The notes under the pieces were generated by a model. It made no database searches. It worked only from the letters and a program-made list of their open reading frames with translations, and was not told the origin of the DNA. Source: Acetobacteraceae bacterium (lineage in GTDB: Bacteria > Pseudomonadota > Alphaproteobacteria > Acetobacterales > Acetobacteraceae). Taken from it: DNA of 34,112 nt. Positions 3,832-31,724 of this stretch are shown piece by piece. The first letter of the stretch is position 1, and the number at the start of each line of letters is the position of its first letter. The DNA is taken from contig JANWXJ010000159.1 of assembly GCA_025055335.1 (NCBI GenBank), positions 1-34,112 of the forward strand, given 5' to 3'. The position numbers were made by a program, and so were the translations under genes.

Positions 3832-4568
3832 TCCGCGCGGCGCTCCTCGTGCTCGTGCTGCTGCTTCCGGCCGGATCCCGCGCCGAGGAGGCGCTGATCT
3901 CCCGCCTGTCGGACCGGCGGGTCGAGATCACCACCGCCTTCACCGGCGCCGCCATCCTGGTGTTCGGCACGACGGGGGCGCCGCTCGGGCCCGCCTCCGG
4001 CCATGACGTGCTGATCCGCGTCGAGGGGCCGCCGCAGCCGATGGTGGTGCGCCGGCGGGTGCGGGTGGCGGGGCTGTGGGTGCCGGGGCCGACCGCTACC
4101 TTCCCCGAGGTGCCCTCCTTCTATGCCCTGGCCGGCACCCGCCCGCACTGGGAGGTGCTGAGCGAGGGCGAGCGGGCGGCCGCCCGCCTCGGCCTGATCA
4201 ACCTGCCGATGCGCGCCGTGGGAGAGCAGGCGCCGGTGTTCCGCGCCGCGCTGCTGACGCTCAAGCAGGAGGCCGGGCTGTGGGTCGAGCAGCCGGAACC
4301 CGTCTCGGTCGATGGCGGACGGCTGTTCTCGGCGCGCATCCCGCTGCCCTCCACCGTCGCGCCGGGCGAATACCGGGTGTCGGTGCTGCTGGTGGCGGAA
4401 GGCCGGGTGCTGGAGTGGCAGGAGCACGGCCTGTCGGTCCTGCGCGTCGGCACCGCCGCCACCATCGCCGGGCTGGCGCGGAACTGGCCGCTGCTCTACG
4501 GCCTCGTGTCGGTGCTGCTCGCCGCCGCCGCCGGCTGGCTCGGCAGCATCCTGTTCCGGAGAGGCTGA
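3828..4568 (+). CDS. TIGR02186-like conserved membrane protein (signal peptide, periplasmic domain, C-terminal TM)
   Basis: GTG start overlaps the TSUP stop (GTGA). N-terminal signal VIRAALLVLVLLLPAGSRAEE; EITTAFTGAAILVFGTTG; C-terminal TM LLYGLVSVLLAAAAGWLGSILFRRG. Position after a TSUP gene matches this family. Confidence 0.8.
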   Translation: MIRAALLVLVLLLPAGSRAEEALISRLSDRRVEITTAFTGAAILVFGTTGAPLGPASGHDVLIRVEGPPQPMVVRRRVRVAGLWVPGPTATFPEVPSFYALAGTRPHWEVLSEGERAAARLGLINLPMRAVGEQAPVFRAALLTLKQEAGLWVEQPEPVSVDGGRLFSARIPLPSTVAPGEYRVSVLLVAEGRVLEWQEHGLSVLRVGTAATIAGLARNWPLLYGLVSVLLAAAAGWLGSILFRRG

Positions 4569-24113: not shown

Positions 24114-24884
24114 ATGCCGGAACCCCGCCCGCGCGTCGCGCTCTTCGTCACCTGCCTTGTGGACCTGTTCCGCCCGACCGTGGGCTTCGCCGCCATCCGG
24201 CTGCTCGAGCAGGCCGGCTGCGAGGTGGCGGTGCCCATGGCGCAGACCTGCTGCGGCCAGCCCGCCTTCAACAGCGGCGACCGCGCGACCGCGCGCGACC
24301 TCGCCCGCCGCGTGGTGGACGCCTTCCTGCCCTACGACTTCACCGTGGTGCCCTCGGGCTCCTGCGGCGGCATGATCGCCCGCCATATCCCGACGCTGTT
24401 CGAGGACGATCCCGCCTATCGCGGCAAGGCGGAGCGCCTTGCGGCCAAGACGCATGAGCTCGTCTCCTTCCTGCGCGACGTGCGGGGGATGGAGCGCGTG
24501 GAGGCCGCCTATCACGGCACCGCCACCTACCACGATTCCTGCTCCGGCCTGCGCGAGATGGGGGTGAAGGCGCAGCCGCGCGCGCTGCTTGCCAGCGTCG
24601 CCGGGCTCTCGCTTGTCGAGATGGCCGAACCCGAGACCTGCTGCGGCTTCGGCGGCACCTTCTGCGTGAAATACCCCGAGATCAGCCTGCGCATGGCAAG
24701 CGACAAGACGAAGGACATCGCCTCGACCGGGGCCGACACGCTGCTGGCCGGGGACATGGGGTGCCTCCTCAACATCGCCGGGCGCCTGAGGCGCGAAGGC
24801 AGCACGGTGAGGGTGCGGCACGTCGCGGAGGTGCTGGCCGGCATGACGGACAGCGTGCCGCCGATCGGCGCGGCGCGGGAGTGA
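24114..24884 (+). CDS. lutA: Lactate utilization Fe-S oxidoreductase LutA/YkgE
   Basis: VALFVTCLVDLFRPTVGFAAIRLLEQAGCEVAVPMAQTCCGQPAFNSGD and ETCCGFGGTFCVKYPEIS. Confidence 0.95.
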   Translation: MPEPRPRVALFVTCLVDLFRPTVGFAAIRLLEQAGCEVAVPMAQTCCGQPAFNSGDRATARDLARRVVDAFLPYDFTVVPSGSCGGMIARHIPTLFEDDPAYRGKAERLAAKTHELVSFLRDVRGMERVEAAYHGTATYHDSCSGLREMGVKAQPRALLASVAGLSLVEMAEPETCCGFGGTFCVKYPEISLRMASDKTKDIASTGADTLLAGDMGCLLNIAGRLRREGSTVRVRHVAEVLAGMTDSVPPIGAARE

Positions 24885-24888
24885 CGCG

Positions 24889-26319
24889 ATGGTCCACCTC
24901 ACCTCCCCCGCCTTCAAGGCGAATGCCGCGCGCGCCCTCTCGGATGCCGGGCTGCAGAAGGCGCTGGCGCGCTCGAAGCCGCAGTTCCAGGCCAAGCGCG
25001 CCAAGGCCGCCGCCGGCCTGCCCGAGTTCGAGGCGCTGCGCGACATCGCGCGCGACATCAAGAACCACACCCTCGCCCATCTCGACTTCTACCTCGAGGA
25101 CTACGCGGCGAAGGTGGAGGCCGCCGGCGGCACGGTGCACTGGTGCGCAACCGCCGAGGACGCCCGCGCCGCGGTGCTGCGGATCTGCCGCGCCGCCGGC
25201 GCACGCACCGTCACCAAGGGCAAGTCCATGATCTCGGAGGAGATCGGGATCAACGAGCATCTGGAGGCGCACGGCATCACCCCGGTCGAGACCGACCTCG
25301 GCGAATACATCCTGCAGCTCCGGCGCGAGCCGCCCTCGCACATCATCGGCCCGGCCTTCCACCTGAACCGCGAGGACTGGGAGAAATCCTTCCGCGAGAG
25401 CCACACCGACCTCCCGCCCGACCGCGAGTTCCGCGAACGCCGCGACATCCTGGCGGAAGCCCGCACCCTGCTGCGGCAGAAGTTCCTCGCCGCCGATGTC
25501 GGCATCACGGGGGCCAACTTCCTGATCGCGGAAACCGGCAGCAGCGTCATCGTCACCAACGAGGGCAACGGGGACCTGACGCAGACCCTGCCGCGCGTGC
25601 ACATCGTGCTCGCCTCGATCGAGAAGGTGGTGCCGACGCTCGAGGACGCCTGCGTGTTCCTCCGCCTGCTCGCCCGCAGCGCGACGGGGCAGGACTTCTC
25701 CGTCTACACCACCTTCTCGACCGGAATCCGGCGCGAGACCGACCTCGACGGCCCGCACGAATACCATGTGGTGCTGCTCGACAACGGCCGCTCCAACATG
25801 GTCGGCACGCCGTTCCAGGACATGCTGCGCTGCATCCGCTGCGCCGCCTGCATGAACCACTGCCCAGTCTACCAGTCGGTCGGCGGCCATGCCTATGGCT
25901 GGGTCTATCCGGGGCCGATGGGCAGCGTGCTGACGCCCACACTGGTCGGGGTGGAGAAGGCCGGGCATCTTCCCAACGCCTCCACCTTCTGCGGGAAGTG
26001 CGAAAGCGTCTGCCCGGTGAAGATCCCGCTGCCGAAGCTGATGCGCCACTGGCGCGAACGCGAGTTCGAACGCCACCTGACGCCCGCCACGACCCGCTTC
26101 GGCCTGCGCTTCTGGGCCTGGTTCGCAAGGCGCCCAACACTCTACCGCTGGGCCACGCGCGCGGCGATGGCAACGCTCGGCTGGGCGGGGCGCAAGCGCG
26201 GCGCCTTCGCCGCCCTGCCTCTTGCCGGCGGCTGGACCGCCGGGCGCGACCTGCCGGCCCCGGAAGGGGATACCTTCATGGCCCGCTACGCGCGGCAGCG
26301 GCGGGAGGTGCGGCGATGA
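24889..26319 (+). CDS. lutB: Lactate utilization protein B (LutB/YkgF), ferredoxin-type
   Basis: CIRCAACMNHCPVYQSVGGHAYGWVYPGPMG, CGKCESVCPVKIPLPKLMRHWR, TKGKSMISEEIGINEHLE. Confidence 0.96.
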   Translation: MVHLTSPAFKANAARALSDAGLQKALARSKPQFQAKRAKAAAGLPEFEALRDIARDIKNHTLAHLDFYLEDYAAKVEAAGGTVHWCATAEDARAAVLRICRAAGARTVTKGKSMISEEIGINEHLEAHGITPVETDLGEYILQLRREPPSHIIGPAFHLNREDWEKSFRESHTDLPPDREFRERRDILAEARTLLRQKFLAADVGITGANFLIAETGSSVIVTNEGNGDLTQTLPRVHIVLASIEKVVPTLEDACVFLRLLARSATGQDFSVYTTFSTGIRRETDLDGPHEYHVVLLDNGRSNMVGTPFQDMLRCIRCAACMNHCPVYQSVGGHAYGWVYPGPMGSVLTPTLVGVEKAGHLPNASTFCGKCESVCPVKIPLPKLMRHWREREFERHLTPATTRFGLRFWAWFARRPTLYRWATRAAMATLGWAGRKRGAFAALPLAGGWTAGRDLPAPEGDTFMARYARQRREVRR

Positions 26320-28906: not shown

Positions 28907-29518
28907 TCAGTCCGACAGCACCCCGTGCTGCCGCAGGAAGCCGAGGAGGGGCAGCATCGGCAGGCCGAGGATCCCGGTATGCTCGCCCTCGATCCGGCGG
29001 AACAGCCTAAGGCCGAGCCCCTCCACCCGGTAGGCGCCGACCGAGCGCGTCACCGCCTCGCCCTCGGCGGCGACATACTCGGCGATCACTTCCGGCTGCA
29101 GCGCGCGCATGGCAAGCCGCGGCGCCGCCACATGCTGCCAGACGCGCAGGCCGCCGCGGTGGCAGACCACGGCCGTCACCAGCTCATGCACCCGGCCCGA
29201 GAGCCGGGCGAGCTGCGCCTCGGCCGCGCGCGCATCCGCCGGCTTGTCGAACCATTCCCCCTCGCACACCAGAAGCTGGTCGGCGCCGATCACCAGCGCC
29301 TCCGGATGGCGGCGGGAGATCCGCTCGGCCTTCGCCTCCGCGAGCATCACCGCCGCATCCCGCGGCGGGATGGCTTCCGCCTTCGCCGCCTGCTTGATTG
29401 CGGCCTCGTCCACCGCGGGCGGCATCACCGTGAAGGCAAGGCCCGCCGCGCGCAGCAGCGCCGCCCGGGTCGCCGAGCCGGAGGCGAGGATCAGCGGCGG
29501 ATCTGCGGCCTGCCTCAC
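28907..29518 (-). CDS. maf: Maf-like nucleoside triphosphate pyrophosphatase
   Basis: [83 protein letters not shown]. Confidence 0.95.
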
Positions 29519-30357
29519 GGCTGTGCCTTCCTGCGCAGGTGCCAGCGGTCCATGATCTGCAGGATGGTCGCGGCCGTCTCCTCGATCGAGCGTCGCGTCA
29601 CGTCCACCACCGGCCAGCCGCGCGCGGCGCAGAGCCGCTTGGCGGCCAGGATCTCGGCCTGCACGGCCTCCGGGTCGATGTAGTCCGCGCGGTTCTGCCG
29701 CATGCCGTCGGCGCCGATCAGCTTCAGGCGGTGGCGGCGGATCTCGATCAGCGCATGGGCGTCGATCGTCAGGCCGATGATCGGGCAGGTCGCCTCGTCC
29801 AGCTCGCGCGGCAGATCAACCCCCGGGATGATCGGCACATTGGCCGCCTTCACCCCGCGGTTCGCGAGGTAGAAGCAGGTCGGCGTCTTGGAGGAGCGGG
29901 AGACGCCGACCAGCACCACATCCGCCTCGCGGATGCCGGCGGCGCCCTGGCCGTCGTCATGCGCCAGGACGAAATGCATCGCGTCTATGCGGCGGAAATA
30001 GTCTGCGTCCAGCACATGCTGGGCGGCCCGCTTCGGCTTCGCCTCCTCGCCGATCGCGCGCTGCAGCACCTCGAACACCGGATCGAGCACGGAGAGGCAT
30101 TCCACACCGAGCCGCCCGCAGGTCTCCTCGAGGGCGTGGCGCAGGCTGCGGTCCACCAGCGTGAACAGCACGGGCCCCGGCTCCGCCTCGAGCCCCTCCA
30201 GCACGCGGTCGAGCTGCAGGCGGGAGCGCACGAGGCTCCAGCGGTGGTGCACCACCTGATGGCCCTCGAACCGCGCAAGGCAGGCGCGTGCGATGGAGTT
30301 CAGCGTCTCGCCGGTGGAATCCGAGACGAGATGCAGGTTGATCGGGCGGGCGGCCAT
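29515..30357 (-). CDS. ppsR: Pyruvate, phosphate dikinase / PEP synthase regulatory protein (DUF299; RP001-type)
   Basis: [83 protein letters not shown]. Alternative start at 30366. Confidence 0.95.
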
Positions 30358-30366
30358 CGCCGCCAT

Positions 30367-30683
30367 CCTGCCGTGTCGCGCGGTTGTGGAGAAGCCTGGG
30401 GAAAAGACGTGCCGCCGCCGGCGCAAAAGCGGCCGAGCCGCGCCATACGCGGGTCGCCGCAGGTGTCGTGCCCCCCATGGCGTTGCTGCGGACAAGCGCC
30501 GCGACGGTCTGTGGAAAACCCTTCGGTGCCTCCGCCATTGCAAGCGAATCAACCGCCTGCCTGCGGACAGGCGGCGTGGATATCGCGTGCCGGCGCTGGG
30601 GATGGCCTGCGTCCACGGCTTCCACAGCCCCAACAACGACTCCCACCCTTTCAAGACTCCCTCTTTCGAGGAAGGATCGCGGC
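30367..30683. other. oriC: Candidate chromosomal replication origin (oriC) in the ppsR-hemE divergent intergenic region
   Basis: TGTGGA-core DnaA-box-like sites at 30385-30393 (TGTGGAGAA) and 30510-30518 (TGTGGAAAA), CGTGGATAT at 30575-30583, reverse core TCCACA at 30621-30626, near-match TGGGGAAAA at 30397-30405. Located at the hemE/RP001 origin position known from Caulobacter. Confidence 0.6.
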
Positions 30684-31724
30684 ATGGATGCCCGATCGAA
30701 GCCCTTGCTGCGTGCCCTCTCCGGCGAACCGGTATGGCCGCCGCCCTTCTGGCTGATGCGGCAGGCCGGCCGCTACCTGCCGGAATACCGGCGCGTGCGG
30801 GCCGAGGTGCCGGATTTCGTCGCCCTCTGCACCGATCCGGCGCGGGCGGCGGAGGTCACGCTGCAGCCGCTCCGCCGCTACGGCATGGATGCCGCCATCC
30901 TGTTCTCCGACATCCTGATGGTGCCCTGGGCGCTCAAGCGGGATCTGCGCTTCGCCGAAGGGGAGGGCCCGCTGCTCGCGCCGCTCCGCACCATGGCCGA
31001 GGTGGAGGCGCTCGACGTCGGGGGCGTTGCCGCCGCCGCCCCGGTGTTCGAGACGGTCGCGCGCCTGGCCGAGGCGCTGCCGCGCGAGCATCCGGGGGCG
31101 GCCCTGATCGGCTTCGCCGGCGGCTGCTGGACGGTCGCCTGCTACATGGTGGAAGGCCGCGGCGGGGGCGAGTTCGCCGCCGCGCGCCGCATGGCGCATG
31201 CCGAACCCGGGCTGTTCGCCGCGCTGATGGAGCGGCTCGAGCAGGCCACCATCCGCTACCTCGCGGCCCAGGCCAAGGCCGGGGCCGAGGCGCTGATGAT
31301 CTTCGATTCCTGGGCCGGGCTGCTGTCCCCGCAGGGCTTCCGCCGCTGGGTGATCGGCCCGACGGCGCGGATCCGCGCCGCGCTGAAGGAGCTCGTGCCC
31401 GAGGTGCCGGTGATCGGCTTCCCGAGGCTTTCCGGCCCCCTGATCGCGGAGTATGCGCGCGAGACGGGGGTGGAGGCGGTGGCGATGGACACCGGCCTCG
31501 ATCCCGCCTGGGCGAGGGATGCGGTGCCGCCCTGGGTGGCGCTGCAGGGCAACCTCGATCCGATGGCGCTCGTGGCCGGTGGCGAGGGGATGATGCGCGA
31601 GGTGGAGGCGATCCTCGGCGCCCTGCGCGGCCGGCCCTTCGTGTTCAACCTCGGCCACGGCGTCGTGCCGCCGACGCCGCCCGAGCATGTGGCGGCGCTG
31701 GCGGCGCGGCTGCGCCAAGGCTGA
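30684..31724 (+). CDS. hemE: Uroporphyrinogen decarboxylase
   Basis: [82 protein letters not shown]. Confidence 0.97.

Follow-up and report, generated by a model that had tools for sequence, protein, structure and literature searches.

In the oriC of Escherichia coli, the core DnaA box lies beside a pyrimidine-rich unwinding segment, and the methylation site is GATC. Among alphaproteobacteria, the origin of Caulobacter crescentus (Cori) has been located by independent methods between hemE and a COG1806/DUF299 gene (PMC1914354), in agreement with what an earlier sequence-only reading of the DNA analyzed here had stated for hemE and RP001. The G-boxes of Cori are moderate and its W-boxes very weak (PMC4468827); several GANTC sites have also been reported there (PMC3973325). 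The predicted origins of Rickettsia prowazekii and Wolbachia likewise have hemE on one side, with COG1806 on the other side in Rickettsia (PMC1914354); they are AT-rich and contain predicted CtrA and IHF sites. The BUS origin of Bacillus subtilis and other bacteria is composed of a DnaA-box, a GC-rich spacer, and DnaA-trios, and the associated rule calls for three or more trios next to a box with ≤2 mismatches (PMC8287927; strand convention, PMC8235120).

Here, we analyzed a window of 34,112 bp, the whole of contig C163 in an Acetobacteraceae assembly of 2.92 Mb (256 contigs, 84% complete). A HemE comparison groups the organism with Roseococcus, Roseomonas, and Rubritepida, the best match (73%) being Roseococcus sp. 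SKW89. The divergent ppsR–hemE spacer of 317 bp (30367..30683) is in all likelihood oriC at the ancestral alphaproteobacterial hemE/DUF299 position. This identification, proposed in the sequence-only reading, is supported by the gene neighborhood, the clustering of DnaA boxes, a core kept in 79 relatives, the proximity of parS in six genomes, and a terminus or dif site opposite hemE in three. Origins at hemE/DUF299 would then be known also from a very GC-rich lineage of Acetobacteraceae, represented here only by a fragmented genome, and Roseomonas and its relatives would be seen to have an origin of compact, conserved architecture.

Gene Neighborhood and Motifs of the ppsR–hemE Spacer

NCBIfam assignments set the bounds of the spacer and agree with the flanking genes named earlier. 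ppsR (DUF299; COG1806, Caulobacter CC0001, "RP001"), encoding a PEP-synthase/PPDK regulatory protein, occupies 29515..30366 on the minus strand (NF003742, 309 bits, cutoff 225), and hemE, encoding uroporphyrinogen decarboxylase, occupies 30684..31724 on the plus strand (TIGR01464, 357 bits, cutoff 303), with 317 bp between them. A maf-like gene adjoins ppsR (28907..29518, minus strand; TIGR00172, 121 bits, cutoff 117), a neighbor that we take to be shared with the origin clusters of Caulobacter and Rickettsia. An Rfam search of the 34-kb window returned no matches. Elsewhere in the window, genes of the lactate-utilization type lie at 24114-26319, where a LutB/LldF family protein (24889-26319) is preceded by a related iron-sulfur protein.

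A position check of each of the five DnaA-box-like motifs claimed for the spacer found all of them at their coordinates. Two differ from the DnaA box by a single mismatch, namely, TTCTCCACA at 30385..30393 (minus strand; plus strand TGTGGAGAA) and TTTTCCACA at 30510..30518 (minus strand; plus strand TGTGGAAAA). The latter is located at −174 from hemE, and its 9-mer also occurs at −162 to −180 from hemE in several relatives. The weak box TGGGGAAAA (30397..30405, minus strand) includes the hexamer TGGGGA, which recurs as a weak hexamer at 30597..30602 (minus strand, −87 from hemE). We take TGGGGA to be the Caulobacter W-box (W-box hexamer TCCCCA); it is enriched 24-fold in the spacers of relatives, in the same W-box orientation. 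The degenerate box CGTGGATAT (30575..30583, minus strand, two mismatches, −109 from hemE) aligns with the TGTGGAN region of the relatives and appears to be one half of their convergent box pair. The fifth motif, TTCCACAG, was assigned to the reverse strand at 30620-30627 in the sequence-only reading. The core box position, defined by the alignment and a box census, lies at 30618..30626 on the plus strand and is degenerate, reading GCTTCCACA with three mismatches.

In total, the spacer contains five sites with ≤2 mismatches to the DnaA box. A scan of all 34,112 bp for TTATCCACA at ≤1 mismatch found two sites, both inside the ppsR–hemE spacer, where shuffles lead one to expect 0.41 per window, indicating clustering beyond chance. 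The organism's own DnaA has the canonical recognition helix FGNRDHTTVLHAV, the same as in its relatives, and boxes of the E. coli type are therefore expected.

The description of the spacer as less GC-rich is correct yet modest (67.8% vs 73.9% for the window), since 5% of 317-bp windows are equally low. The caveat attached to the original proposal also stands: the spacer contains neither a TTAA-N7-TTAA (CtrA) site nor an IHF consensus, and no strongly AT-rich unwinding element was found in its 317 bp, though it is AT-richer than its surroundings. The most AT-rich 40 nt, at 45% AT (30627..30666), line up with hemE-adjacent DNA that is likewise AT-richer in the relatives and are the probable unwinding segment.

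The locus resembles Cori in having the same flanking genes, a divergent spacer, and DnaA sites that fall short of the E. coli consensus; the weak-box strategy of Cori (PMC4468827) is similar to that of the window. Relatives have TGATCCACA at the core. In contrast to Cori, the window's spacer is higher in GC and has no 40-bp AT-rich element, and CtrA sites, absent from it, occur in only 1 of the 79 relatives. Caulobacter-type CtrA gating is therefore not indicated. The lack of CtrA and IHF motifs likewise separates the spacer from the AT-rich Rickettsia and Wolbachia origins. As in E. coli oriC, the core box lies directly beside a pyrimidine-rich, probable unwinding segment with potential methylation sites, although the methylase site is a different one (GANTC), the window is GC-rich, and no IHF match is present. 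Overall, the locus is very probably the expected feature at the same spot as in Caulobacter and relatives, with DNA motifs that are unusually weak and GC-rich.

Conservation of the Spacer in Relatives

Of 80 related GTDB loci, one is truncated; the other 79 all show divergent ppsR and hemE genes separated by a spacer that usually measures about 285-480 bp. In five more distant relatives from a first panel, ppsR is not beside hemE, which counts against the oriC reading. Alignment of the spacers, an approach suggested with the original proposal, revealed a shared core consisting of TGTGGAN, ~30 bp, TGCGTCCCC, the box, AGGCCC, and an AT-richer stretch up to hemE; the window aligns with it at the conserved TGCGTCCNC-box-AG. 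The boxes are kept as well, with 128 at ≤1 mismatch in 26,888 bp of spacer (window included) versus 41 in 779,458 bp of flank, making them ~90-fold denser. The most enriched 9-mer, ATCCACAGG (CCTGTGGAT/ATCCACAGG), has 63 occurrences in spacers and none in flanks. At the core box itself, the commonest forms in relatives are TTATCCACA (20 loci), TGATCCACA (10), and TCATCCACA (10), and the window has GCTTCCACA. Core boxes of the CTTCCACA type are also present in loci L010, L210, and L221.

We applied the BUS rule at the core box, counting, within 16 bp of the box, runs of three or more trios whose middle T is on the same strand as the box. Such runs occur in 19 of the 79 relatives, and a CTA lies within 14 nt after the core box in 60 of the 79, compared with 6% of random spacer pieces. 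The relatives' TTATCCACA-GGCC-CTA arrangement thus resembles the BUS origin, in the right orientation. The window is unlike it: the core box has three mismatches, no CTA trio follows it, and the longest trio run with a conserved middle T is 1. Degeneracy of the core box is the most unusual trait of the locus, and it gives the idea of a relic some, albeit low, probability.

These features suggest how initiation might proceed. DnaA would bind individually weak boxes at 30385, 30397, 30510, 30575, 30597, and 30618, and the resulting filament would grow toward hemE. Melting is predicted beyond the core box (30618-30626), in the AT-richer DNA that extends to the start of hemE; DnaB would be loaded there, and ParB acting at nearby parS would segregate the new origins.

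GANTC Sites

The window's spacer contains three GANTC sites, versus 0.84 expected (p about 0.05), which are potential CcrM sites: GAATC at 30546..30550, GACTC at 30638..30642, which is common to Paracraurococcus ruber L271, and GACTC at 30655..30659 within TTTCAAGACTCC, which is the GANTC conserved in the stretch next to hemE. Among relatives (loci L203-L282), we counted 369 GANTC in 26.6 kb of spacer versus 655 in 780 kb of flank, a ~17-fold enrichment, corresponding to 4.7 per spacer versus 1.5 expected under a first-order Markov model of each spacer. Sixty-six of the 79 relatives have a GANTC between the core box and hemE, often as AAAGACTCTTTTT. The enrichment in most related spacers is a mildly new point. 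We rejected GANTC as a universal trait of these origins, as the spacer of the closed relative G200 has one site and that of SKW89 (L203) has none between the core box and hemE. GANTC is scarce in Roseococcus spacers.

A protein with a RAMA domain, the type found at the C-terminus of CcrM, is encoded in the organism's own genome and in 4 of 4 relatives searched. CcrM may also control the spacer. GANTC marks CcrM/GcrA-regulated promoters and is intergenically enriched in most alphaproteobacteria (PMC8116508). Given this precedent and that of the Caulobacter origin (PMC3973325), a role of GANTC in the hemE promoter is as plausible as one in the origin. A more speculative and rather doubtful idea, drawn by analogy, is that origin GANTC sites serve as a timing device in Roseomonas-type Acetobacteraceae, with CcrM acting as Dam does on GATC in E. 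coli oriC and without CtrA; the window's three sites might then be a reduced version.

Position on the Chromosome

We searched six closed or near-closed relatives for parS using the pattern TGTTTCACGTGAAACA with ≤2 mismatches; a control pattern gave 0 matches. parS lies 26 kb from hemE in G200, 6.5 kb in both G213 and G111, 9 kb in G109, 33 kb in G025, and 46 kb in G142. The organism's own assembly has two parS-like sites (G000:C191:7478, 7527) beside parA-parB on C191, a contig with no assembled link to C163. C191 also carries mnmE-gidA-gidB adjoining parA-parB (gene names read from translations).

The GC-skew test put forward with the original proposal was performed on closed relative G200, the own genome being divided into contigs. 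G200 is probably a Roseococcus genome: its spacer is Roseococcus-type and shares an identical hemE-proximal tail with R. thiosulfatophilus L204. In the 2.0 Mb sampled from its 4.21-Mb chromosome (about half coverage), the skew minimum falls at 2.24 Mb and hemE at 2.72 Mb. The minimum is thus 0.48 Mb from the predicted position, and the skew, weak and with a broad trough, does not by itself place the origin. A 7-mer two-arm fit for origin placement was set aside because of its broad optima.

The polar octamer GGGNAGGG, a type of architecture-imparting sequence used in Acetobacter (PMC3751514), was more informative. In G200, its polarity flips sharply at 0.52-0.55 Mb and fades toward the origin; the terminus is therefore placed at the flip. 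The antipode of the terminus (~2.64 Mb) and the cumulative GGGNAGGG minimum (2.64 Mb) lie close to hemE, with an antipode–hemE gap of 2% of the chromosome and the terminus at 0.49 of the circumference from hemE. In G111 and G213, for which the largest contig was taken as the chromosome, the distance from hemE to a dif-like site amounts to 0.526 and 0.516 of the circumference, respectively. Local GGGNAGGG switch points occur 60 kb (G111) and 17 kb (G213) from hemE; the signal is weak near the origin and, at most, consistent with this placement. Inside the window, the octamer is found once on the plus strand and six times on the minus strand to the left and twice on the plus strand to the right, which at n = 9 is suggestive only. 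Where GC skew is uninformative, the origin can be placed by parS and polar motifs. As G200 illustrates, GGGNAGGG polarity is also a useful terminus finder in such a case.

Alternative Explanations

The spacer could instead be a divergent promoter region shared by ppsR and hemE, in which the boxes and GANTC sites regulate transcription through DnaA, CcrM, and GcrA while replication starts elsewhere. The conserved AT-richer segment with GANTC directly upstream of hemE fits such a role, as do the known marking of CcrM/GcrA-regulated promoters by GANTC and its intergenic enrichment (PMC8116508). However, a promoter would leave unexplained the parS sites at 6-46 kb, the terminus or dif opposite hemE in three genomes, and the ~90-fold density of boxes, and we regard this explanation as improbable. 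Origin and hemE promoter functions can also coexist, as they presumably do in Caulobacter. An origin adjoining dnaA, as in many bacteria, has a precedent in the Ori-Finder prediction that puts Acetobacter pasteurianus oriC near dnaA (PMC3751514). Here, it is highly improbable: dnaA is not opposite the terminus in G200, G111, or G213, lying 0.91-1.5 Mb from hemE (0.91 Mb in G200), and in G111 and G213 it is nearer to dif (0.7-0.8 Mb) than to hemE. No clustering of DnaA boxes was seen on C199, the contig with the own dnaA.

The sequence-only reading had offered "oriC, or a relic of it". A relic would imply that the lineage moved its origin elsewhere and that the boxes are decaying, as the three mismatches of the GCTTCCACA core box and the loss of trios, in contrast to the CTA of 60 of the 79 relatives, might suggest. 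The own assembly is in fragments, at 84% completeness, so a better site could lie in the missing part. Against this, the spacer retains two boxes with a single mismatch as well as core blocks that align with those of relatives, and L010, L210, and L221 likewise have core boxes of the CTTCCACA type. The whole own assembly (2.92 Mb) contains 64 1-mismatch boxes versus 83 in a reversed control, and besides the spacer, one pair of boxes within 500 bp, on C3; neither the dnaA contig nor the parS region of this assembly has a comparable cluster. The oriC half of the earlier statement is thus upheld, and the relic half becomes a slim prospect, since the own assembly offers no better candidate and the core blocks of the spacer still align.

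The box pair on C3 (C3:8023/8057) was rejected as an origin, as it lies between phage portal and prohead-protease/capsid genes. The two DnaA-like boxes are 34 bp apart at L287:4024-4066 (G000:C3:8023-8065), in a prophage of the same assembly, flanked by the portal gene and the prohead-protease/major-capsid genes. In the same locus, at ~4425, a TAG preceding the start at 4489 apparently breaks the frame of the prohead protease/capsid gene, which may reflect a sequencing error or a decayed prophage.
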